The notes under the pieces are model-generated. The model ran no database searches. It worked only from the letters and a program-made list of their open reading frames with translations, and was not told the origin of the DNA. Shown in pieces: positions 22,972 through 32,909 of a stretch of DNA of 32,909 nt (the stretch's first letter is position 1; every line of letters starts with the position of its first letter). Location: contig QHYE01000028.1 in NCBI GenBank assembly GCA_003224055.1, positions 1 through 32,909 of the forward strand, read 5' to 3'. This stretch comes from Acidobacteriota bacterium. GTDB taxonomy: Bacteria > Acidobacteriota > Terriglobia > Acidiferrales > UBA7541. The position numbers and the translations under genes were made by a program.

Positions 22972-25670
22972 GAGATTTGTTTCTTCAGCTCGGCGAGGAG
23001 ATTGAGGGCGTCGAGCGGTTTCAGTTGGTCGAGGTCGGCGTCGCGGAGTTTCTCGAGCACTTCGCGGTCGAGAGCGGTGAAGAGGATTTGCTGATTGCCG
23101 TTTTTGTGCGCGGGATCAGCTGCTCCCGGGGAAAGCGTTTCGCTGAGTTCGTGCTCGCTCTGCTCGTGTTTTTTCAAGACCTCGCGGGCGCGTTCGATCA
23201 CACTGCGCGGGAGTCCGGCAAGGCGAGCGACTTCGATGCCATAGCTTTTGTCGGCGCTGCCGGGTTCGACGCGCCGAAGAAAAATAATTTCGCTGGGCGT
23301 CTCTTTCACCGAAACGTGCACGTTTTTCACCGCCGGGAGAAGTTCCGCTAGCTCGGTCAATTCGTGATAGTGCGTGGCGAAGAGCGTGCGCGCGCGAGTG
23401 TGCTTTTGCAGGTGCTCGACGACGGCCCACGCGATGGAGAGGCCATCGAACGTGGCGGTACCGCGGCCGACTTCGTCGAGAAGGACCAAGCTCGCGGGCG
23501 TGGCGTGATTCAGAATGGCGGCGACTTCGCTCATCTCCACGAGAAAGGTCGAACGGCCGCGCGCGAGATTGTCGCTGGCACCGATGCGCGTGAAGATGCG
23601 ATCCGTGATGGGCAGCTTGGCTTGGCGCGCGGGAACGAACGAGCCCATCTGCGCCATGAGCACGATGAGCGCGGACTGGCGAAGGTAGGTAGACTTACCG
23701 CCCATGTTCGGGCCGGTGATCAGCAGAAGCTGCTGGCGGCCGGGTTCGAAATATAAGTCGTTCGGAACAAAGCGCTCGCCCTTTTGACGTAAAAGTTCTT
23801 CGATCACGGGATGACGGCCGCCGACGATGAGCAATTCGCCCGTGGAATTGAATTCTGCGCGCGTGTAGCAGCGGTCGGCGGCGAGTTTTGCGAACGCCGT
23901 GAGCACGTCGAGCTGCGCCACCGCGCTGGCGGTGCGGCGCAGGCGCGCGGCCTTCGCGGCCACTCCGGAGCGGATGTCCACGAAAAGCTGTCGTTCAATT
24001 TCCACGACGCGCTCATCGGCGGCGAGAATTTTGCGTTCGTACTCCTTGAGTTCCGTGGAAGTGAAACGCTCGGCATTGACGAGCGTTTGCTTTCGTTCGT
24101 AATCGGCGGGCGCGAGGTGCAGATTCGCTTTCGAAATCTCGATGTAATACCCGAAGATCTGATTGAACCGAATCTTCAGCGAATTGATCCCCGTCCGTTT
24201 TCGTTCGCGCTCTTCCATGGCGGCGATAATCTGTTTGCTGTGCTGGCTCAGGTTGCGGAGCTCGTCCAGCTCGCCGTGATAGCCGCTGCGGATCATCCCG
24301 GGTTCGGTGGCCAGGGCCGGCGGATCGTCGGCGATGGCACGCTCGAGCCGCTCGCGGACGTCGGTGAGTTCGTCGAGCTCCTGGTGGAGATGACGAAGAA
24401 GCTCGCTGCCGCCTGCGGGCTGCGGTGTGAGGAAATTCTTGAGCACGGGAAGCTGCGTGAGAGATTTGCGCAAGGCCACGAGCTCGCGTGGGGACGCGAG
24501 GCCAAGTGTAATGCGGCTGGTGAGGCGCTCCAGGTCGAGAATGCCTTTGAGCTCTTTGCGGATTTCGCCGCGCACGACGGTTTGTTGGACAAGGTGCGTG
24601 ACCGCATCGAGGCGCGCATCGATCGCTTCCCGATCAATCAGTGGACGAAGCATCCAGGAGCGCAGGAGACGCGCGCCCATGCCGGTGACCGTGGCGTCCA
24701 GCGCGGCGATCAGCGTGGTGGGGGCAGCCGCGCGAGCCGCTTCCTCGGTAAAGATGGGCGCAAGCAATTCGAGATTGCGGACGGACACGGGGTCAAGGAC
24801 CAGAGCGTCGTGCTGTTCGTAGTAACGGACGCGGTCGAGATGTCGGAGGGCTTCGGCGGTGGAGGACGCACCTTTGTTGGCGGTCTCGCTGCGGTCCGCA
24901 CTATAGGCGGCGTTTTCGCGGAGATAGTGCACGATGACGCCGGCTGCTGCGAGGGCTTGCAGATGATCGTCGAGGCCGAAGCCGGTAAGTTCGGCGACGC
25001 CGAATTGTTCGCGGAGGATGCGTTCGGCATAGTCGCGCTGAAAAATCCAATCTTCGAGGCGGGATTCCACGCCGCCGGCGCCTTCGAGGAGCGAGGTCTT
25101 CGCCGTTTCGAAGAGCTGCTGGGGCCGGGGAAGCAGCGTTTCCCGCGGATGAAGCAATTGCAGCTCGTCGCGGAGCGCTTCATCGGCGCGAGGGCCGGAG
25201 AATTCCGTGGCTTGAAATTCGCCGGTGGAGAGATCGACGTACGCGAGGCCAATGGGCGAGCCAGAGGCGTGCCGGGCGACGGAGGCGAGAAAATTGTTTT
25301 CACGGGCGTCGAGCACGGCGACATCGGTCGCCGTGCCGGGCGTGATCACGCGAACGACTTCGCGTCGGACGAGTTTTTTGCCCGGGCCGGGCTGCTCCAT
25401 CTGGTCGCAGATGGCGATTTTGAATCCGGCGCGAATCAGGCGCGCGATGTAGCCTTCGGCGGCGTGATACGGAACGCCGCACATGGGAATGGGCTGACCC
25501 TTTTCGCGATTGCGCGAAGTGAGCGTGATCTGCAGCTCGCGCGCGGCAATAATCGCGTCCTCGTAGAAAAGTTCGTAGAAATCGCCGAGGCGGAAAAGCA
25601 ACAGAGCGTGCGGGTACCGTGCCTTGATGGCGTGATACTGCTGCATCAGCGGTGTTGTCGGCTCGCTCAT
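22968..25670 (-). CDS. mutS: DNA mismatch repair protein MutS
   Basis: Encodes 900 aa, full family length. It recognises mismatches and recruits MutL. The N-terminal mismatch-reading Phe-X-Glu is F31-Y32-E33 in RLGDFYELFYEDA. The connector, lever and clamp domains occupy the middle. The ATPase has Walker A GPNMGGKST (653-661), Walker B LVLLDE (728-733) and the following GRGTATFDG. A C-terminal tail with LKPLDALNLLAELK is present. It starts 16 bp downstream of the S9 peptidase stop and overlaps anmK, so S9 peptidase, mutS, anmK and the SBP gene look co-transcribed. Confidence 0.96.
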   Translation of the reverse strand: MSEPTTPLMQQYHAIKARYPHALLLFRLGDFYELFYEDAIIAARELQITLTSRNREKGQPIPMCGVPYHAAEGYIARLIRAGFKIAICDQMEQPGPGKKLVRREVVRVITPGTATDVAVLDARENNFLASVARHASGSPIGLAYVDLSTGEFQATEFSGPRADEALRDELQLLHPRETLLPRPQQLFETAKTSLLEGAGGVESRLEDWIFQRDYAERILREQFGVAELTGFGLDDHLQALAAAGVIVHYLRENAAYSADRSETANKGASSTAEALRHLDRVRYYEQHDALVLDPVSVRNLELLAPIFTEEAARAAAPTTLIAALDATVTGMGARLLRSWMLRPLIDREAIDARLDAVTHLVQQTVVRGEIRKELKGILDLERLTSRITLGLASPRELVALRKSLTQLPVLKNFLTPQPAGGSELLRHLHQELDELTDVRERLERAIADDPPALATEPGMIRSGYHGELDELRNLSQHSKQIIAAMEERERKRTGINSLKIRFNQIFGYYIEISKANLHLAPADYERKQTLVNAERFTSTELKEYERKILAADERVVEIERQLFVDIRSGVAAKAARLRRTASAVAQLDVLTAFAKLAADRCYTRAEFNSTGELLIVGGRHPVIEELLRQKGERFVPNDLYFEPGRQQLLLITGPNMGGKSTYLRQSALIVLMAQMGSFVPARQAKLPITDRIFTRIGASDNLARGRSTFLVEMSEVAAILNHATPASLVLLDEVGRGTATFDGLSIAWAVVEHLQKHTRARTLFATHYHELTELAELLPAVKNVHVSVKETPSEIIFLRRVEPGSADKSYGIEVARLAGLPRSVIERAREVLKKHEQSEHELSETLSPGAADPAHKNGNQQILFTALDREVLEKLRDADLDQLKPLDALNLLAELKKQIS

Positions 25671-25686
25671 GCCTCGTCGGCCATTC

Positions 25687-27828
25687 TCATTCGCGGATTC
25701 CGAGCTGCGTCAGCAGAAAGGCGTAGTCGAACGCGATCTCCCGGAGGTAGTCGTAGCGTCCGGATGCGCCGCCGTGTCCCGCGCCCATGTTGGTTTTCAG
25801 AAGCAGAAGATTCGCATCGGTTTTCAGCGTGCGCAGCTTTGCGACATATTTTGCGGGCTCCCAGTACATCACCTGGCTGTCGTTCAGCCCGGTTTTCACG
25901 AGCATTGTCGGGTACGCTTTCCGCTGCAGGTTGGTGTAGGGGCAATACGACTTCATTTCCAAGTAGTCATCTGCGATTTGCGGATTGCCCCATTCTTCGT
26001 ATTCGCCCACGGTCAGCGGCAGCGAAGCGTCTAGCATGGTATTGAGAACATCCACGAAGGGGACGTGGCTGATGACGATGCGGAAGAGATAGGGGCGCAT
26101 GTTGGTCACGGCGCCCATGAGCAGTCCACCGGCGCTGCCGCCTTCGATCACGAGTTTCCGTTGCGAAGTGAATCGCTGGGCGATGAGATGCTCCGCGGAA
26201 GCGACAAAATCGGTGAAGGTGTTGCGCTTTTTCTTCATGCGGCCGGCATCGTGCCAGGGTTTCCCAAGTTCACCGCCGCCGCGAATGTGGGCGACCGCAA
26301 AGATCACGCCGCGGTCCAAGAGGCTCAGACGATTCGAACTGAAATGGACCGGCATAGAGAGGCCGTAACTGCCGTAGCCATAAAGGAGGAGCGGGGCGGA
26401 GCCGTCGCGCGGCGTGTCGCGCCGATAGACGACCGACAGAGGCACGCGCGTGCCGTCAGAAGCGGTAGCGTGCAGCCGCTCGCTGCCATATTGCGCAGGA
26501 TCGTAGCCTCCCAGGACCGGCTGCTGCTTCCGAAGGATACGCTCGCGCGTGCGAACGTCGTAGTCGAAGATGGAGCGAGGCGTCACAAAGGATTCGTATT
26601 GAAAACGGAGGTGCGTGGCGTTGAATTCCGGATTTTCACCGATGGACGCATTGTAGGCGGGCTCCGCGAAAACGATGCGGTGCGAGGCTTCGAGAAGTTC
26701 AGGAGCGACGGAAGTCAGATCCACGATCCGAAGAAAAGGAAGACCGCCTTCGCGTTCGAAAAGAACAAGATGCGTTTTGAAAACCTCGGCTGCTGCGAGC
26801 ATGACTTGCCGCCGATTAGGGATGATTTCTTGCCAGGATTCACGTCGAAAGGCGGAAACGGGGACAGACATCAGGCGAAACGTTCGGCCACCAGAATTCG
26901 TGCGGATATAAAATACCTCGCCCGCCGCATCGCCTGCAGGGCCCGGATGATGTCCGACATAATATTCATGGTTGTCTTCGCGCGGAGCGATGATTTGAAA
27001 ATCGCTATGCGGCTGGTCCGAATGGAGAAAGCGGACTTCACTGGTCGTGTGGCTCGCGATGGTGAGCAAAATAAAATCTTTGCTGCGAGAGCGTTCGACT
27101 TCCAGGCGAAACCGCTCATCGCCTTCTTCGTAGAGCAAGGAATCCGGTTCCTTGGAGCCGATCGCATGGCGGTACACCCGGTGCGAGCGCTTGGTGGTTT
27201 CATCCTCGACGGTGTAGAAGAGTGAGCGGTTGTCAGCCGCCCACGCCGCGCTCGTGACGCGCTCGATTTTCTCGGGCAACAGCGCGCCGTTGATCAGATC
27301 CTTCACATACAGCATGTACTGCCGGTATCCGGTCGTGTCGATCGAGTAGGCCAGGAGGCGATCGTCATCACTGACATCCAACGAGCCGAGCGCCAAAAAA
27401 GAGTGGCCCACCGCAAGCTGATTCAGATCCAGCAGGAGCTCTTCCGGGGAACCCTCCGCCTCGCGCCGGCGGAAATGGAGCGGATATTGCTTGCCCTCGT
27501 GCGTGCGGGTGAAATAGAGATAGCCGCGCAGGCGGTAGGGAACCGTGAAGTCGGTCTGCTGAATCCGGCCAAGCATTTCCTGATAGAGCTTTTCTTGAAG
27601 CTGCTCGGTAGGCCGCAGGATCGCGTCCGTGTAAGCGTTTTCGGCTTCCAGGTAGGCGATGACATCGGGATTTTCTTTTTGGCGGAGCCAAGCGTAGTGG
27701 TCGACGCGGCGATCGCCATGCAAAGCGTGCTCCACGGGTTCGCGCCGCGCTACCGGCGGCTGGGGGACGGTGTCTGTTGTCGCGTCGTGCGACGAGGTTG
27801 CCGTCTCTGTTTTGGCGTCAGGATTCAT
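25687..27828 (-). CDS. S9A serine peptidase, oligopeptidase B-like
   Basis: Encodes 713 aa. A prolyl-oligopeptidase-family enzyme with an N-terminal seven-bladed propeller (about 75-430) and a C-terminal alpha/beta hydrolase domain. The catalytic triad is visible: S565 (GGSAGG), D650 (GLNDSQVMYWEPAK) and H685 (GAGHGGASGRYDYLRE). The last two contexts and the DVLNTMLDASLPLTVGEYEEWGNP stretch fit oligopeptidase B (cleavage after Arg/Lys) better than prolyl oligopeptidase. The first 30 residues are Thr/Ala-rich without a signal peptide, so it is probably cytoplasmic. It is divergent from the CYTH gene. Confidence 0.92.
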   Translation of the reverse strand: MNPDAKTETATSSHDATTDTVPQPPVARREPVEHALHGDRRVDHYAWLRQKENPDVIAYLEAENAYTDAILRPTEQLQEKLYQEMLGRIQQTDFTVPYRLRGYLYFTRTHEGKQYPLHFRRREAEGSPEELLLDLNQLAVGHSFLALGSLDVSDDDRLLAYSIDTTGYRQYMLYVKDLINGALLPEKIERVTSAAWAADNRSLFYTVEDETTKRSHRVYRHAIGSKEPDSLLYEEGDERFRLEVERSRSKDFILLTIASHTTSEVRFLHSDQPHSDFQIIAPREDNHEYYVGHHPGPAGDAAGEVFYIRTNSGGRTFRLMSVPVSAFRRESWQEIIPNRRQVMLAAAEVFKTHLVLFEREGGLPFLRIVDLTSVAPELLEASHRIVFAEPAYNASIGENPEFNATHLRFQYESFVTPRSIFDYDVRTRERILRKQQPVLGGYDPAQYGSERLHATASDGTRVPLSVVYRRDTPRDGSAPLLLYGYGSYGLSMPVHFSSNRLSLLDRGVIFAVAHIRGGGELGKPWHDAGRMKKKRNTFTDFVASAEHLIAQRFTSQRKLVIEGGSAGGLLMGAVTNMRPYLFRIVISHVPFVDVLNTMLDASLPLTVGEYEEWGNPQIADDYLEMKSYCPYTNLQRKAYPTMLVKTGLNDSQVMYWEPAKYVAKLRTLKTDANLLLLKTNMGAGHGGASGRYDYLREIAFDYAFLLTQLGIRE

Positions 27829-27886
27829 TTGTTTCTTTAGTTCGGGCGCCGGAGATTCGCGTGCCCGGGTATTCCTTTGCGTGCGT

Positions 27887-27901
27887 CCGCTATACTAGCG
27901 G
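27887..27901. promoter_or_regulatory. Palindrome overlapping a -10-like element
   Basis: CCGCTA-TAC-TAGCGG is a perfect 6-bp inverted repeat that contains TATACT (27891-27896), lying in the 121-bp divergent gap about 50 bp before the CYTH start. It could be a -10 with an overlapping operator. No clear -35 is seen. Confidence 0.35.
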
Positions 27902-27949
27902 AAGTCGACGGCCGGAGAAAGCTGCGGCCTCGAGAACGGAAGCGACCAG

Positions 27950-28618
27950 ATGGCGCAAGAGACAGAAATCAAGCTGAAGATTGTCGACGTGCGGGCGTTC
28001 CACCGCGCCCTGAAGCGCATCGGCGCGCGCCCCGCAGGGAGGGGATCGGAGCGAGTCCACGAGGAAAACGTAATTTTCGATACGCCGGACGGCGGACTGG
28101 CCAAGCACGGGCAGTTGCTCCGCATTCGAACGGAGTCGCCGGAGACGCGAGGAAAGGCCAAAGCGAAGGATTCGAAACAACGGGTGGTTCTGACGTTTAA
28201 ACAGCCGATCGTTGGGGCGGGTGCCGAAGCGGCCCGCCATCTGCGGCGCGGGCAATACAAAGTCCGGGATGAAACGGAACTCGAAGTGAGCGACGCCGGC
28301 AATCTTGCGCGAATCTTTGAAGGCCTGGGAATGAGCGGCTGGTTCCGTTATGAAAAATATCGGTCCACCTTTCATCTGCCAAATTCAAAAACGTGGGCCC
28401 GGGGACTGCTGATCGAGCTCGATGAAACGCCCATCGGGGCGTTCGTGGAGCTGGAAGGGCCTGCCGAAGCGATCGATCGCACCGCGACGGAGCTTGGCTT
28501 TTCAAAAAATGACTACGTCTTGAAGAATTATCTCGTGCTGTACATGGAAGAATGCCGCCGAAAGGGTGAACAGCCCACCCACATGCTTTTTCCGGCGCAG
28601 AAAAGTCATTTAAAGTAG
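27950..28618 (+). CDS. CYTH-domain protein (class IV adenylate cyclase / triphosphatase type)
   Basis: Encodes 222 aa. It begins with the diagnostic ExExK signature (E4, E6, K8 in ETEIKLKI). Further tunnel residues follow in LLRIRTE (about 57-63), VVLTFKQP, RDETELEV, YEKYRSTF and the C-terminal LLIELDETPIGAFVELEG. CYTH enzymes hydrolyse or cyclise triphosphorylated substrates (ATP to cAMP, thiamine triphosphate, inorganic triphosphate) in a metal-dependent beta tunnel; which activity applies cannot be decided. There is no CHAD domain. ATG 27950 has GGAAG 8 nt upstream. Confidence 0.88.
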   Translation: MAQETEIKLKIVDVRAFHRALKRIGARPAGRGSERVHEENVIFDTPDGGLAKHGQLLRIRTESPETRGKAKAKDSKQRVVLTFKQPIVGAGAEAARHLRRGQYKVRDETELEVSDAGNLARIFEGLGMSGWFRYEKYRSTFHLPNSKTWARGLLIELDETPIGAFVELEGPAEAIDRTATELGFSKNDYVLKNYLVLYMEECRRKGEQPTHMLFPAQKSHLK

Positions 28619-28648
28619 CCTTCCAGTCGAAAAAATCGCTCTTTGTTG

Positions 28649-28677
28649 TTGACATTCTGTTGCCTGCAGTTTATCAA
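28649..28677 (+). promoter_or_regulatory. Strong sigma70-type promoter of the leader RNA
   Basis: TTGACA (28649-28654), a 17-bp spacer and TATCAA (28672-28677): a full-consensus -35 with optimal spacing. The predicted start is near 28684. It is the best promoter seen in the window and lies 347 bp before the MgtE-like ORF. Confidence 0.65.
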
Positions 28678-28683
28678 TTCACG

Positions 28684-28953
28684 TGAGGCCCCAAGAATTG
28701 GTGGGGTCGAAGACCACGGAGTGAATTCTCTCTCGATGAGTGCGAGGAGCGAAGTCGAACCTGGCCCCAGTGGGAAGGGGCTGGAGTGGAACCCAAAGCG
28801 CGTAGACAGTTTGGGTGTCCAGTGGATCTCGCGCGAGTTGCAGGCTATGGCTCGGGCGGCCGGGTGGGGAGGGTTCACTAGCGGCTAACGGTAAGTCCAT
28901 ATTTGTGAGGCACTTGCCCGCGGCCAACGTTCATCGGTGCGCGGGCTTTTTTT
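28684..28953 (+). ncRNA. Candidate structured leader RNA or independent sRNA
   Basis: About 270 nt between a consensus promoter and an intrinsic terminator, with no convincing ORF. Visible helices are GGCCCC (28687-28692) with GGGGTC (28702-28707), one G-U pair; CTGGCCCC (28761-28768) with GGGGCTGG (28777-28784), two G-U pairs; the perfect ACCCAAA (28791-28797) with TTTGGGT (28810-28816), extendable by CTGGA (28781-28785) with TCCAG (28818-28822); and CTCGCGCGAG (28828-28837). The second helix and the CTGGA extension share bases, so they are mutually exclusive. CGGGC (28853-28857) could pair with the terminator's 5' arm. No promoter is visible between the terminator and the MgtE-like gene, favouring a cis-acting attenuator. 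It matches no RNA class I can name; GTGAGGC at 28684 resembles an M-box stretch only superficially. Confidence 0.5.
28916..28953 (+). terminator. Intrinsic terminator upstream of the MgtE-like gene
   Basis: GCCCGCG (28916-28922) pairs perfectly with CGCGGGC (28940-28946) and is followed directly by seven T residues (28947-28953). It ends 70 nt before ATG 29024, the arrangement of a riboswitch-type attenuator or of an sRNA end. Confidence 0.75.
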
Positions 28954-29023
28954 GTTGCCCGGCGGTCGCGAATGCGCCGAATCCAGTTGAGGGAAGGCCA
29001 GTTCGCCGGAGAAGGGGAAGTCT

Positions 29024-30265
29024 ATGGAACTCTATGCCACGGAATTGATGGGATCAAAGGCTTACGATTCGGAGGGCAATTTCGTCGGGCGGGTCCGCGA
29101 GTTCTTTATTGAACCGGCGGAGGCGCCGAATCGCGTGTCGCATTACCTGCTCTCGCGCGGGAATTATCAGCCGCTGGTCGCCAAGCATAACCAAGTCGCA
29201 TCGATATCCGCAGGAAAATTGAAACTGAACGTGGGGGAGCGGGCATTAGAGCTGTACCGGCCGAACGAGTCCTGGCTGGCGGTGCAGAAGGATCTGATGG
29301 ACCAGCAGATCATTGATACCGGTGGGCGGAAGGTCGTGCGCGTGAACGATGTGGACCTGGCAGAACTGCGGGCCAATGGGAACGTGGAGTTGCGGCTGAC
29401 GCAAGTGGATGTGGGACTGCCGGGGGCGGTGCGGCGGCTCCTCCAGGGCGTCGTGCCATCGGCTGTGATCCGCAGGCTGCAGAGCCGGCTGCCGCAGAAG
29501 TCCATCCGATGGGAATTTGTGAACCTGATCGAACCGGACCCGCTGCGTCGGGTGAAGCTGCGCATCTCGCATGAGAAGCTTGAGGATCTGCACCCGGCCG
29601 ACGTGGCGGAGATGATGGAGGATCTCTCCGCTGCCGAGCGGCAGGGAATCATCGCCTCGCTGGACGAAGAGACGGCCGCGGCGGTCCTTGCGGAACTGGA
29701 CGAGCGGCTGACGACCCAAATCGTGGAAAAAATGGATCCGGGAAAAGCCGCGGACATCCTGGAGGAAATGGCGCCGGACGCCGCGGCGGATGTTCTGGCC
29801 GACTTGCCGAAGAAAACCTCCGAAGAAGTCCTGGATGAGATGCCGGGGCGGGAAGCGGACGAGGTGCGCGAACTGCTGGCATTCGACCCTGCCACGGCAG
29901 GCGGAATGATGAACCCGGATTTCGTGTTTGTGGGCGAGACTTCAGCGCGCGACGAAGTGCTGGAGTGGATGCGCGATCAGGAACTGAACCTGGACCAGCT
30001 TGACACCATTGTTTTGCTGGATGACAACGCACAATATTCCGGCACGGTGTCCGTGGCGCGACTGCTGCTGGCAGCGCCAGACCAACGGATGGCCGAACTA
30101 AAGATGGAACCGCTGCTCAGCCTGCCGGGAAACGCGGATGACAAGGAAGTGTTCGAACTCTTCGACAAGTACAATTTGCGAATGCTGACGGTAATCGACG
30201 CAGAAAACCGGCCCATTGGCGCCATCACGGTGGACGATGTGGTGTCGCGGCTAGTGAAGGACTAG
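29024..30265 (+). CDS. Soluble PRC-barrel / MgtE_N / CBS protein (Mg2+ sensor-like)
   Basis: Encodes 413 aa with no transmembrane segment. Domains: two PRC-barrel-like regions (about 1-75, YDSEGNFVGRVREFFIE; and 90-165, IIDTGGRKVVRVNDVDLAEL), an MgtE N superhelix (about 188-290; LHPADVAEMMEDL, AAAVLAELDERL, AADILEEMAPDAAADVLADL), the linker FDPATAGGMMNPDFVFV (288-304) and a CBS pair (about 296-410, ending RPIGAITVDDVVSRLVKD). In true MgtE channels these cytosolic domains bind Mg2+ and shut the pore, but here the pore domain is missing altogether and the gene stops cleanly. The start has a good ribosome site (GGAGAAGGGG). The Nramp-like transporter begins 21 bp downstream, suggesting that this protein gates or senses for it (inference). 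Confidence 0.9.
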   Translation: MELYATELMGSKAYDSEGNFVGRVREFFIEPAEAPNRVSHYLLSRGNYQPLVAKHNQVASISAGKLKLNVGERALELYRPNESWLAVQKDLMDQQIIDTGGRKVVRVNDVDLAELRANGNVELRLTQVDVGLPGAVRRLLQGVVPSAVIRRLQSRLPQKSIRWEFVNLIEPDPLRRVKLRISHEKLEDLHPADVAEMMEDLSAAERQGIIASLDEETAAAVLAELDERLTTQIVEKMDPGKAADILEEMAPDAAADVLADLPKKTSEEVLDEMPGREADEVRELLAFDPATAGGMMNPDFVFVGETSARDEVLEWMRDQELNLDQLDTIVLLDDNAQYSGTVSVARLLLAAPDQRMAELKMEPLLSLPGNADDKEVFELFDKYNLRMLTVIDAENRPIGAITVDDVVSRLVKD

Positions 30266-30286
30266 GAAAGGCTTTTGATCTGAACG

Positions 30287-31609
30287 ATGAATTGGGGCGC
30301 CATTTCCGCGAGATTTGACCGCGTGCGCGCGGGCGATACGGGCTTGCAAAAGAAGATCCGTGGCCTGCGCCGGCGGCTCACGCTGCTGCTCGCGGTGGTC
30401 GGCCCCGGGCTGATCACGTCCAATGTGGACAACGACGCCGGCGGAATATCTGTTTACACGCAAGCGGGAGCGAAATACGGGTATGCGCTGCTGTGGTCGC
30501 TCATACCGATGACGATTGCGCTGTATGTCACGGAAGAGATGTGCGCGCGGATGGGAGTGGTCACCGGGAAAGGGCTTTCGGACCTGATTCGCGAGGAGTT
30601 TGGATTTCGGTCGACGTTTTTTGTGATGATCGCGGGTTTCTTCGTGGACCTGGCCAACGTGGTGGCGGAGTTTGCCGGGGTCGCAGCGGCCATGCAGATT
30701 TTCGGCATCAACAAATATGTTTCCGTGCCCATAGCGGCGATGCTCGTTTGGATTTTGGTGATCCGAGGAACGTACCGGCAGGTGGAGGTCATTTTTCTTT
30801 TTGCCTGTGTCCTGTATCTGTCTTATGTATTTTCCGCGTTTCTGGCGAAGCCAGATTGGCTAATCGCCGCCAAGCACACGGTATTTCCGAATCTTCAATT
30901 CAATTCGGGATACTTGATCATGCTGACCGGCCTCGTCGGAACCACGATTGCTCCGTGGCAGTTTTTTTATCTGCAAGCGGGGTTTGTCGAGAAAAAAGTC
31001 GGTCCCCGCCAATATCCGCAAGCGCGCGCCGATGTCCTCTTTGGCAGCGTGACTTGCATGATGATCGTTTTCTTTATAATCGTCTGCACCGCAGCGACGC
31101 TGTACACCACCGGGCATCGCGACATTACCGACGCCGGGCAGGCAGCGCAGGCGCTCATACCCCTTGCGGGGAAGGGCGCCGGCGTCCTGTTCGCGTTCGG
31201 CTTGCTCAATGCTTCGCTCTTCGCGGCTTCCATTCTGCCGCTGTCCACGGCGCACGTGATTTGCGAGGGTCTCGGTTTTGAGGCGGGGCTGGACCGCAAA
31301 TTCAAGGAAGCTCCGATTTTCTACTGGCTCTACACCGTTCTTATTGTCGTGGGGGCGGGAGTGGTCCTGCTGCCCAATGCGCCGCTGTGGAAGATTTTGA
31401 TCTTTTCCCAGGTGGGTAACGGAGTGTGGCTGCCCGTGGTGGTCATTTTCATATTGTTGCTCGTCAACCGGCGCGACTTGATGGGAGAGTACGTCAACAC
31501 CACAACGTTTAACGTCGTTGCCTGGGTCACGGCCATCGCCATGATCGCGCTGACGCTGGTGCTAACCTACACAGCCATTTTCCAACAGGCTACGCCCCCA
31601 GCACCCTGA
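30287..31609 (+). CDS. Nramp-related transporter, probable Mg2+ (NRMT-type)
   Basis: Encodes 440 aa, about 11 hydrophobic helices with the LeuT/Nramp fold. In Mn/Fe Nramps, TM1 carries DPGN and TM6 carries MPH, where the Met thioether selects transition metals. Here TM1 aligns without gaps (followed by the conserved QAGAKYGY) as D50-A-G-G53, and TM6 reads A222-P-W224 (TIAPWQFFYLQ), so Asn, Met and His are replaced. Loss of the Met is the hallmark of Nramp-related Mg2+ transporters (NRMT), first described in Clostridium, where some are under M-box control. It is co-directional with the MgtE-like protein (21-bp gap). No strong ribosome site precedes ATG 30287, so coupling to the upstream gene is likely. 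Mg2+ as the substrate is an inference. Confidence 0.88.
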   Translation: MNWGAISARFDRVRAGDTGLQKKIRGLRRRLTLLLAVVGPGLITSNVDNDAGGISVYTQAGAKYGYALLWSLIPMTIALYVTEEMCARMGVVTGKGLSDLIREEFGFRSTFFVMIAGFFVDLANVVAEFAGVAAAMQIFGINKYVSVPIAAMLVWILVIRGTYRQVEVIFLFACVLYLSYVFSAFLAKPDWLIAAKHTVFPNLQFNSGYLIMLTGLVGTTIAPWQFFYLQAGFVEKKVGPRQYPQARADVLFGSVTCMMIVFFIIVCTAATLYTTGHRDITDAGQAAQALIPLAGKGAGVLFAFGLLNASLFAASILPLSTAHVICEGLGFEAGLDRKFKEAPIFYWLYTVLIVVGAGVVLLPNAPLWKILIFSQVGNGVWLPVVVIFILLLVNRRDLMGEYVNTTTFNVVAWVTAIAMIALTLVLTYTAIFQQATPPAP

Positions 31610-31658
31610 TGCTAAACACGGCACCGCAGCGTTGCGCAGGGGCAGAAGCGTATGTTAA

Positions 31659-31673
31659 CTTTACGGCGTAAAG
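31659..31673. promoter_or_regulatory. Small palindrome upstream of uppS
   Basis: CTTTAC-GGC-GTAAAG is a perfect 6-bp inverted repeat in the 94-bp gap before uppS. A TATGTT hexamer lies just upstream (31651-31656) but has no -35 at proper spacing. It is a possible operator or RNA hairpin; low certainty. Confidence 0.3.
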
Positions 31674-31703
31674 AAGAATTGGATTCAAAGACGAATACAC
31701 GCC

Positions 31704-32549
31704 GTGACGCTGACGAAATCACATAAAACCCTGCACCTCGCCACGCCGACTGAGCTTGGGCCGGTGACCGCGGAAGAATCGCGCCTGCTCGAAAAACTTG
31801 ATTTGGCGCGGCTGCCGAGGCACGTGGCCGTGATCATGGACGGGAACGGGCGCTGGGCGCAGAAACGCCACCTGCCGAGGATTGCCGGGCATCGTGCGGG
31901 AACGCGGTCGGCTCGCACCACCATCGAGACGTGCGCGCGCTTGAAAATTGAGGCGCTGACCCTCTATGCCTTCTCGGTGGAGAATTGGCGGCGGCCCAAG
32001 GCAGAGATCGATTTCCTGATGCAGCTCTTGCGCGAATACCTCCGCAAGGAGATGCCGCTCCTCCAGAAAAACAATATCCGGATGCGTTTTCTCGGCCGCA
32101 TCGAGGAGCTTCCCGCAGGCGTGCAGAACGATGTGCGGGACGCCATGGAAAAAACGGCGGGGAACAAAGGCATGGTGCTGTGTGTGGCGCTGAATTACGG
32201 GGGACGCGCGGAAATTGTGGATGCCATGAACGCGATTCTCGCGGAACGGAATGGGCACGGAGCACCGGACAAAGTGACCGAAGCGCAGCTTTCGAGGCAT
32301 TTGTATACGGACGGGCTGCCCGATCCCGATTTGCTTATTCGGACGAGCGGAGAAATGCGCGTCAGTAATTTTTTGCTCTGGCAGATAGCCTATGCGGAGA
32401 TTTTCGTGACCGAAACGCTCTGGCCGGATTTCAACCGGGCGCAATTGCTGGAGGCTTTGCTCGAGTTTCAAAAGCGCGAGCGCCGGTATGGCGGCATCCG
32501 CGAAGGCGAACCTTCCGACGAAAAGCCTGTGCGCGCGGCGGGTCATTGA
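31704..32549 (+). CDS. uppS: Isoprenyl transferase (undecaprenyl diphosphate synthase)
   Basis: Encodes 281 aa from GTG 31704. A cis-prenyltransferase that condenses IPP units onto FPP to form the C55 lipid carrier for peptidoglycan. Motifs are HVAVIMDGNGRWA (40-52) with catalytic Asp46, GHRAGTRSARTTIETCARL, LTLYAFSVENWRRP, LNYGGRAEIVDA and the C-terminal RTSGEMRVSNFLLWQIAYAE with the dimer-interface WPDF. The N-terminus is about 25 residues longer than in most homologues, so a start further downstream is possible; no clear ribosome site was seen. Confidence 0.94.
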   Translation: MTLTKSHKTLHLATPTELGPVTAEESRLLEKLDLARLPRHVAVIMDGNGRWAQKRHLPRIAGHRAGTRSARTTIETCARLKIEALTLYAFSVENWRRPKAEIDFLMQLLREYLRKEMPLLQKNNIRMRFLGRIEELPAGVQNDVRDAMEKTAGNKGMVLCVALNYGGRAEIVDAMNAILAERNGHGAPDKVTEAQLSRHLYTDGLPDPDLLIRTSGEMRVSNFLLWQIAYAEIFVTETLWPDFNRAQLLEALLEFQKRERRYGGIREGEPSDEKPVRAAGH

Positions 32550-32712
32550 TCCGCCTTTCTCGCCAAGCAGAGAAGCATCCAAACGTTACGTCGCTGAAAC
32601 ATGTCAGGCGCGCGGTCTGTCTGGTTAACCATAACACCCCCCTCCCTATTTTTTGTAAGTGTTGATTCTAAAGGGCTTAACACTTCCATAAGTCATTTGT
32701 TTTCAACACTTA
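32550..32712. other. Non-coding gap with a 10-bp inverted repeat
   Basis: No gene is seen. TAAGTGTTGA (32656-32665) and TCAACACTTA (32703-32712) are perfect inverted copies 37 bp apart, with a partial third copy TTAACACTT (32678-32686). The stretch is A+T-rich relative to its surroundings and ends exactly where the putative insertion sequence begins. Confidence 0.45.
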
Positions 32713-32909
32713 GGCTCTGTTGACATCCTCGATGCAGTTCTCGTTACGAGGGATCGACAAGGAGAGGCTTACGGTGTTTTCTGCTAGGGCAGGAGGGACG
32801 ATGGCCGAGGTCGGACTCCTGCCCTTGGCTCGCGTGGCGCTGCAAGTAGCCACGCAGGTTTTGCCGCCCTATCGCTCGCGCTTCAGCAAACAGCAGTTCA
32901 CCCAGCCGC
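32713..32909 (+). mobile_element. Left end of an IS4/IS5-like insertion sequence (truncated by window)
   Basis: GGCTCTGTTGACAT (32713-32726) resembles IS5-group terminal repeats, which often begin GGCTxTGTTGA. An 88-bp leader separates it from a transposase start at 32801. The right end is outside the window, so the terminal repeat and target duplication cannot be confirmed. Confidence 0.5.
32801..32909 (+). CDS. Transposase, N-terminal fragment (IS4/IS5-like DDE)
   Basis: ATG 32801 follows AGGAGGG at 3-nt spacing. The 36 visible residues include LARVALQVATQVLPPYRSRF and then SKQQFTQP, a leading segment typical of DDE transposases whose next element is usually a Q-L-L helix. The frame is open to the window end and no catalytic residue is in view. 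Confidence 0.6.
   Translation, partial: MAEVGLLPLARVALQVATQVLPPYRSRFSKQQFTQP

Follow-up and report, generated by a model that had tools for sequence, protein, structure and literature searches.

An NRMT-type transporter, its MgtE-like partner and a candidate Mg2+-sensing leader in an acidobacterial operon

Transporters of the NRMT (NrmT) type are known to be encoded beside MgtE-like fragments. Shin et al. 2014 (PMC4072509) reported this gene pair, Acidobacterium included, along with a split form in Clostridium acetobutylicum and M-box control of the pair, and proposed cytoplasmic feedback or chaperoning by the partner. Both the pairing and the feedback idea are thus already published. The NRMT group has the metal-site motif DxxG in the first transmembrane helix (TM1) and TxxA/T in TM6 (PMC8806188). 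EleNRMT of Eggerthella lenta (PDB 7qia; Ramanadane et al. 2022, PMC8806188) displays this motif, and no partner protein is mentioned in the available parts of that paper. A second line of comparison is offered by MgtL, where ribosomes drop off at an EPDP sequence when Mg2+ is low, turning on mgtA (PMC11282234, PMC11552253). Here, we describe an operon on contig QHYE01000028.1 of an Acidobacteriota bacterium (GCA_003224055.1; lineage Terriglobia; Acidiferrales; UBA7541), the analysed stretch of 32,909 nt being referred to as the window. It encodes an ATG-started soluble protein of 413 aa (29024..30265), which we call the sensor, and an ATG-started NRMT-type, Nramp-fold transporter of 440 aa (30287..31609). 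These and all further window features lie on the forward strand.

We lean towards reading this operon as an NRMT-type divalent-metal importer with a dedicated cytosolic regulator and, in this lineage, a leader-peptide attenuator. Directly established are the homology, the constancy of co-occurrence, which sites are kept or lost, and the architecture of the leader. In favour of this reading are EleNRMT as best match, the co-occurrence, the acidic residues kept from the Mg4 and Mg6 sites of MgtE, the M-boxes of Bacillota, and an EPxP motif and hairpin in the leader. What the MgtE-like partner does was not settled in 2014, nor by any publication that we found. New relative to that work are co-occurrence at genome level, a PRC-like marker module, the kept and lost MgtE sites and the candidate Mg2+-sensing leader; the available text of Shin et al. 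2014 mentions neither PRC, upstream open reading frames (uORFs), leader peptides, co-occurrence nor CBS. Below, L-numbers denote fetched loci, G-numbers genomes and f-numbers families of the window's own phylum.

The gene pair and its distribution

The two open reading frames (ORFs) are separated by 21 bp. Pfam assigns PRC (residues 2-33), MgtE_N (189-289, 95 bits) and CBS (361-411) to the sensor, and Nramp (317 bits) to the transporter. The MgtE membrane domain (PF01769) was not found in the sensor by Pfam; the genome's own full-length MgtE does match it. A second Nramp of the same genome is canonical (DPGN/MPH). The transporter's nearest named relatives come from metagenome-assembled genomes (MAGs), several titled 'Acidobacteria bacterium isolate gp2', at about 90% identity. 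The original prediction, a soluble 413-aa PRC/MgtE_N/CBS protein 21 bp before an Nramp-fold transporter with DAGG in TM1 and APW in TM6, is confirmed by the ORFs, Pfam and alignment, which place the two motifs at transporter residues 50-53 (30434..30445) and 219-224 (TTIAPW, 30941..30958).

By motif (D50-A-G-G53, T219-T-I-A222) and by tree, the window transporter is a member of the NRMT group, as had been predicted, and shares the DxxG-TxxA motif of EleNRMT. The canonical Nramp/MntH residues DPGN and MPH are replaced by DAGG and APW. EleNRMT is also the best solved match (336 bits versus 125 for the best MntH). In a tree of 73 rows (excluding L072, which has a broken frame, and the duplicates L102 and L110), the window falls inside a clade of 48 rows, clade I (support 97/88), all from sensor-bearing genomes. 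EleNRMT adjoins this clade, the joint group of 49 rows having a support of 94/81. Six sensor-linked rows form a second group, clade II, apart from clade I. The row L081 is unlabelled, and its genome holds a sensor plus a clade I transporter. Two canonical DPGN rows stand far from the window, which is thus not placed among the Mn/Fe Nramps; long branches leave some joins of the tree unsure. NRMTs are further defined by Mg2+ transport without proton coupling.

In 41 of 46 loci fetched by their transporter, the same strand carries a sensor no more than about 760 bp upstream, so the pairing is not due to chance. Among these 41, the sensor is cut by a contig end in L027, L029 and L035 and has a broken frame in L022 and L026; in these last two, both MAGs, the transporter is whole, and sequencing error and decay are both conceivable. 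In a further locus (L049) the transporter itself is truncated at the contig end. The remaining four (L040, L041, L045, L047) have no sensor so close, yet all four genomes hold a full-length one; in L041 it ends 5.6 kb upstream of the transporter.

The same association holds across genomes. Among 247 genomes of the window's own phylum, a full sensor (at least 229 bits with full-length coverage) is present in 76 and the transporter (at least 318 bits) in the identical 76, while 171 have neither. The transporter cut-off was set after the list had been viewed; eight of the rows below it (314 bits and less) had been fetched first and represent other clades or motifs. In clade I genomes, sensor and transporter are adjacent (up to 400 bp), with the sensor first, in 27, within 8 kb in 18, 199 kb apart in one and on different contigs in 17. 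In clade II, 12 pairs are adjacent and one is on different contigs; the order is reversed (as in L089-L094), the transporter coming first in all 12 adjacent pairs. Altogether, sensor and transporter genes lack close linkage in 19 of the 76 genomes (18 on different contigs, one at 199 kb). Some of the different-contig cases are perhaps assembly breaks (G241 looks so) and others lie deep inside long contigs (G211). The hypergeometric chance of the coincidence is negligible, a figure that is not a fair probability since the genomes are related. More telling is that presence varies within several families (for example f5, f23, f28, f41 and f45) and that both genes switch together.

Of 249 genomes of Bacillota, to which Clostridium akagii belongs, 22 hold a full sensor and 22 the transporter (at least 445 bits), with 21 shared. 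Both mismatches are explained: the sensor of G490 lies at the very end of a contig, and that of G383 is broken into two adjoining ORFs ahead of its transporter. The predicted conservation of the gene pair is thereby upheld in both phyla, and this near-perfect co-occurrence implies that the partner is not optional in nature. The original prediction had also called for a survey of fusions; a test for a shared frame and a shared open frame detected no natural sensor-transporter fusion among linked pairs in the 76 genomes of the window's phylum.

The soluble protein might instead be a metal chaperone, buffer or scaffold that is needed whenever the transporter is present, rather than its regulator. 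Chaperone activity was named as an alternative by Shin et al., and separation of the genes in 19 of 76 genomes fits any shared pathway. Sensors without an adjoining NRMT also exist in two Bacillota genomes (G414 and G262, both of which have linked pairs too). We nevertheless judge this explanation distinctly unlikely. Presence of the protein tracks one transporter subfamily and not a general need for Mg2+, 171 of 247 genomes having neither gene, and in two genomes two small, separate PRC-like proteins adjoin another, divergent Nramp-fold protein (see below).

One of the solitary sensors, in G262 (G262:C4), is full-length and precedes by 186 bp a 648-aa AA_permease_2 protein (PF13520) reminiscent of the KimA-type potassium importers; the two span L104 1523-4909. 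In the C. akagii genome (G247; L106 1101-1694), the PRC half of the sensor occurs alone as a 197-aa protein without the MgtE_N/CBS half.

The M-box (RF00380) was found upstream in four of six Bacillota loci (L032, L036, L042 and L050; not L038 or L046), in L036 about 1.2 kb before the sensor. It was found in none of six non-Bacillota loci searched, and window positions 25000-32909 gave no match up to an E-value of 5.

Sensor architecture and its possible action on the transporter

The sensor begins with two modules that look PRC-like, from sequence pattern and predicted strands, over its first 172 residues. Module 1 (residues 1-81, 29024..29266) is beta-rich in the predicted model and passes the Pfam PRC profile (PF05239) with 22.2 bits against a cut-off of 21.2. 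Module 2 (residues 82-172, 29267..29539) has no Pfam match. They are followed by the MgtE_N domain (residues 189-289, 29588..29890) and a CBS pair (residues 291-413, 29894..30262). The best solved matches are MgtE cytosolic domains, and the predicted sensor superimposes on one of these (PDB 2yvy) with a Z-score of 22.0 and a root mean square deviation of 2.5 over 238 residues. The structure matches are all CBS or MgtE entries, and absence of the PRC fold from this list is no argument against PRC-like modules. N-terminal superhelix, CBS pair and Mg4 and Mg6 residues are common to sensor and MgtE. Unlike MgtE, the sensor has no membrane domain, plug helix or ATP pocket, and carries the two PRC-like modules in front.

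Alignment of 20 sensors with Thermus thermophilus MgtE allowed a site-by-site comparison, for which the roles of the Mg4, Mg5, Mg6 and Mg7 sites and of the ATP pocket were taken from the accessible parts of PMC5882242 and PMC5529423. The Mg4 residues D91 and D247 are kept as D252 and D405 (18/20 sensors each) and the Mg6 residue D95 as D256 (19/20), while D250 of MgtE is an aspartate in only two of the 20. The sequences suggest that the Mg2+-reading interface may survive in part and that the parts acting on the MgtE pore are gone. If the sensor gates the NRMT, it must therefore use another contact.

The second PRC-like module offers a concrete place to seek that contact. Among 54 of 75 sensor sequences kept at below 85% identity, the most conserved block of ten residues is 101-110 (GRKVVRVNDV, 0.83) in module 2, ahead of 191-200 in MgtE_N (0.77) and 91-100 (0.73). 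With an alignment of module 2 as query, matches were obtained in 76 of 247 own-phylum genomes, the same 76 that hold sensor and transporter, and in 23 of 249 Bacillota genomes, namely the 22 with the transporter plus G490. Module 2 is thus a new marker of transporter-bearing genomes.

A weak extra match of the module 2 search led to G181 (L111 983-2880), where an Nramp-fold gene without the TM1 aspartate is followed by two small PRC-like ORFs, with no MgtE_N or CBS adjoining. The same arrangement, again with a divergent Nramp-fold gene, is seen in G039 (L118 853-2718). The module 2 profile matches the first small protein with 25 bits in G181 and 21 bits in G039, and Pfam PRC scores of the small proteins are 14.5 and 15.5 (L111) and 21.4 and 17.3 (L118) against the cut-off of 21.2. 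This is possibly a second PRC-Nramp system, and these sequences hint that PRC-like pairs serve Nramp-fold proteins, the MgtE part being an addition. Among the papers searched, none mentions the PRC-barrel together with Nramp or with magnesium transport.

In the mechanism we propose, the two PRC-like modules would hold the regulator onto the Nramp-fold transporter. The MgtE_N/CBS part would read free Mg2+, or possibly Mn2+, through the interdomain acidic sites shared with MgtE, and the regulator would slow uptake when the ion is plentiful. The idea central to the original prediction, a partner that regulates the transporter, is plausible. Its formulation as an MgtE gate redeployed in trans stands as far as the conserved partnership goes; the term 'plug' was too strong for a protein that has no plug helix and has lost the ATP pocket.

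Several observations weigh against the preferred reading. The Mg7 residue E59 is acidic in 17 of 20 sensors but alanine in the window; Mg5 is lost, with asparagine for D226 in 17 of 20; F227 of the ATP site is leucine or isoleucine in all 20 (L385 in the window); and the window sensor stops after the CBS pair, before the plug helix. Judged against an MgtE channel, only MgtE_N and the CBS pair are present, and the membrane domain, plug helix and ATP site are absent. Mean conservation of module 2 (0.52) is below that of MgtE_N (0.59), the CBS pair and module 1 having 0.51 and 0.37, respectively. The transporter of G417 has DAGG/TTIAPW, yet no sensor was found in this genome, which indicates that the link belongs to clades I and II and not to the motif. 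A fused-chain model gave no evidence for or against docking. The two ORFs share one frame and are closely spaced in the window and 14 relatives; for the model, the window and 12 of these relatives were read through the stops as a single chain. The model (861 aa in the window, 28 unpaired rows, no predicted aligned error or coordinates) reached a predicted template modelling score of 0.60, and its linker and the transporter N-terminus have a predicted local distance difference test score below 50. The genome's own full-length MgtE means that Mg2+ uptake is not otherwise missing. Finally, Shin et al. 2014 (PMC4072509) report, in the text available, that Mg2+ was carried by the C. acetobutylicum transporters when no partner was present. 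Their Acidobacterium capsulatum transporter restored a Mn2+-uptake mutant completely, whereas a Mg2+ mutant needed low millimolar Mg2+ for rescue; this is a Mn2+-like, not a Mg2+-like, phenotype, and including the partner brought no further rescue. This is the only experiment on the pair that we found in the literature, and as reported there it gives no support to the feedback model. Since rescue at low Mg2+ cannot reveal a brake, it does not rule against that model either.

The A. capsulatum result raises the question whether the system serves mainly Mn2+, the transporter importing Mn2+ and the sensor answering Mn2+ or keeping Mg2+ out. EleNRMT is reported to carry both ions, and the full-length MgtE would be available for Mg2+. 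We regard this explanation as unlikely, given that the Mg2+-linked M-box precedes the same pair in four of six Bacillota loci, that the leader ORF resembles those of Mg2+-transporter genes and that a canonical DPGN/MPH Nramp is already present in the genome. Moreover, the loci titled Silvibacterium (L031) and Acidobacterium (L045) have DPNG, not DAGG, in TM1, so the window may not be well represented by A. capsulatum.

A leader open reading frame before the operon

Upstream of the sensor gene, outside the region covered by the original prediction, the window contains a promoter-like TTGACA-N17-TATCAA (28649..28677), a uORF of 50 aa (28736..28888; N-terminus MSARSEVEPGPS, C-terminus GWGGFTSG) and, before the operon, an intrinsic-terminator-like hairpin followed by a run of seven T (28916..28953; hairpin -16.8 kcal/mol). 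By analogy with known systems this leader ORF is a new candidate Mg2+-sensing leader peptide. Thirteen close loci have such a promoter-like stretch, ORF (about 50 codons) and hairpin plus T run ahead of the sensor. An alignment of 13 upstream regions shows no change in TTGAC or in the TTAT of the second box; in L012 and L014 the spacing is one longer. A stricter consensus scan listed neither promoter nor hairpin.

Leader counts are based on 22 loci selected for having such an ORF (the window, L005-L023, L025 and L026). L024, with 234 nt upstream, was left out of the counts, and L005, L008 and L026 were left out of the alignment. The ORF ranges from 41 to 50 codons. After its stop, all 22 loci have a hairpin and then a T run, which begins 47-58 nt past the stop, in most cases 57. 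EPxP lies within the first 15 residues in 18 of 22 (EPGP in the window); L011 has KPGP, L025 EAPETPGP, and L012 and L021 neither pattern. Examples of the N-terminus are MSYSLDQEPLPRRR (L018 and L022), MSYSLDQEPLPSRR (L019) and MTESEELEPFPSSKR (L020). The C-terminus, GWGGFxGG (28850-28888 in the window), is conserved like the N-terminus, while the middle drifts.

As a background, EPxP occurs in the first 15 residues of 25 of 1112 ATG-started ORFs of 35-60 aa in 21 loci (534 kb, both strands). Twenty-two of these 25 precede a hairpin with T run; one is antisense to the leader ORF and the other 21 are the leader ORF itself, from 18 loci, three of which contribute two ATGs each. Leader DNA was found in 25 of 61 relatives, all of the window's genus. 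All 20 fetched copies, which include the window's and several of the 22 loci, stand before a sensor, and 18 have EPxP.

Coding by the leader ORF has points against it as well. That the frame is open in all 22 loci stems in part from how the loci were chosen, namely for having such an ORF, and purifying selection on the peptide is modest, with nonsynonymous (pN) and synonymous (pS) values of 0.293 and 0.359 (0.169 and 0.291 for the C-terminal dozen residues). The other two forward frames over the span are open in only one and two of the 22 loci, and the reverse-strand frames are often open too (20, 13 and 7 of 22). Given these reverse frames and the modest selection, coding is likely, not proven, on the sequence comparison.

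The leader has the sequence hallmarks of the MgtL type: a short ORF with an early acidic/proline motif, upstream of a hairpin resembling a termination site. As the available parts of PMC11282234, PMC11552253 and PMC8092293 describe them, the MgtL, CorL and MgtQ leader ORFs are likewise short, have early acidic residues and lie ahead of a Mg2+-transporter gene; early prolines are common to MgtL and the window. In contrast, the ORF of the window's lineage is longer (41-50 aa), and an intrinsic-terminator-like hairpin here takes the place of Rho (MgtL, CorL) or translation control (MgtQ). The similarity to the enterobacterial leaders is probably due to convergence. In four of six Bacillota loci searched an M-box precedes the same operon, a position that the leader ORF occupies in the window.

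By analogy with MgtL, the terminator would form when the acidic/proline-containing ORF is translated efficiently at high Mg2+; when Mg2+ is low, ribosomes would drop off and transcription would proceed into the operon. An anti-terminator is tentatively modelled: in the alignment, the ELEPG codons pair with the 3' arm of the terminator and the U run, a pairing that ranks first in 13 of 22 loci in a best-duplex scan but twelfth in the window. A riboswitch aptamer is not supported, as 13 leaders folded by consensus show almost no covariation (term of 0.01, 5 of 51 pairs changed on both sides); Rfam gave only a chance OmrA-B match for the leader up to an E-value of 10.

It is quite possible, if short of probable, that the leader ORF has nothing to do with Mg2+ and instead acts as an attenuator sensing proline or another amino acid, or encodes a genuine small protein. 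The Mg2+ response is proposed by analogy, the conserved C-terminal GWGGF suggests a second function, and Salmonella mgtP, in the same kind of leader, is reported to answer charged tRNA-Pro. Two points speak for a Mg2+-sensing leader: conservation at the N-terminus covers acidic residues and a proline, in contrast to the drifting middle, and all 20 fetched copies stand before this metal operon. Should the ORF sense Mg2+, measurement of Mg2+ by leader peptides that destabilise the ribosome would extend, by convergence, far beyond enterobacteria, and this would argue that the acidobacterial NRMT belongs to Mg2+, not Mn2+, supply.

A more far-reaching model, which we offer as speculative and on balance doubtful, places two independent Mg2+ feedback loops, at protein and mRNA level, on one Nramp-fold importer. 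A tandem PRC-like adaptor would dock the MgtE-derived sensor onto the unrelated transporter fold, as a swappable module that another Nramp branch would also use in the form of two free PRC proteins. The acidobacterial leader, having arisen independently of MgtL, would through its EPxP start let transcription pass an intrinsic terminator when Mg2+ is low, in the position where Bacillota use the M-box.

In other genomes of the window's phylum, 40 upstream regions (30 of them before a sensor, 10 before a transporter, one of only 306 nt) contained no clear leader of this kind, as judged by a loose D/E-P-P filter that also matches many unrelated ORFs. Within the window's genome, no leader ORF of this type precedes its own MgtE or canonical Nramp. 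Upstream of the G246 sensor (L150), a TTG-started ORF with EAPAP begins 48 nt after a TTGACA and is a possible further leader. In L002 (982-1062), a 26-codon ORF with an acidic start (MDYDLGYNDLEE) lies about 350 nt before the MgtE gene of the window's genome.

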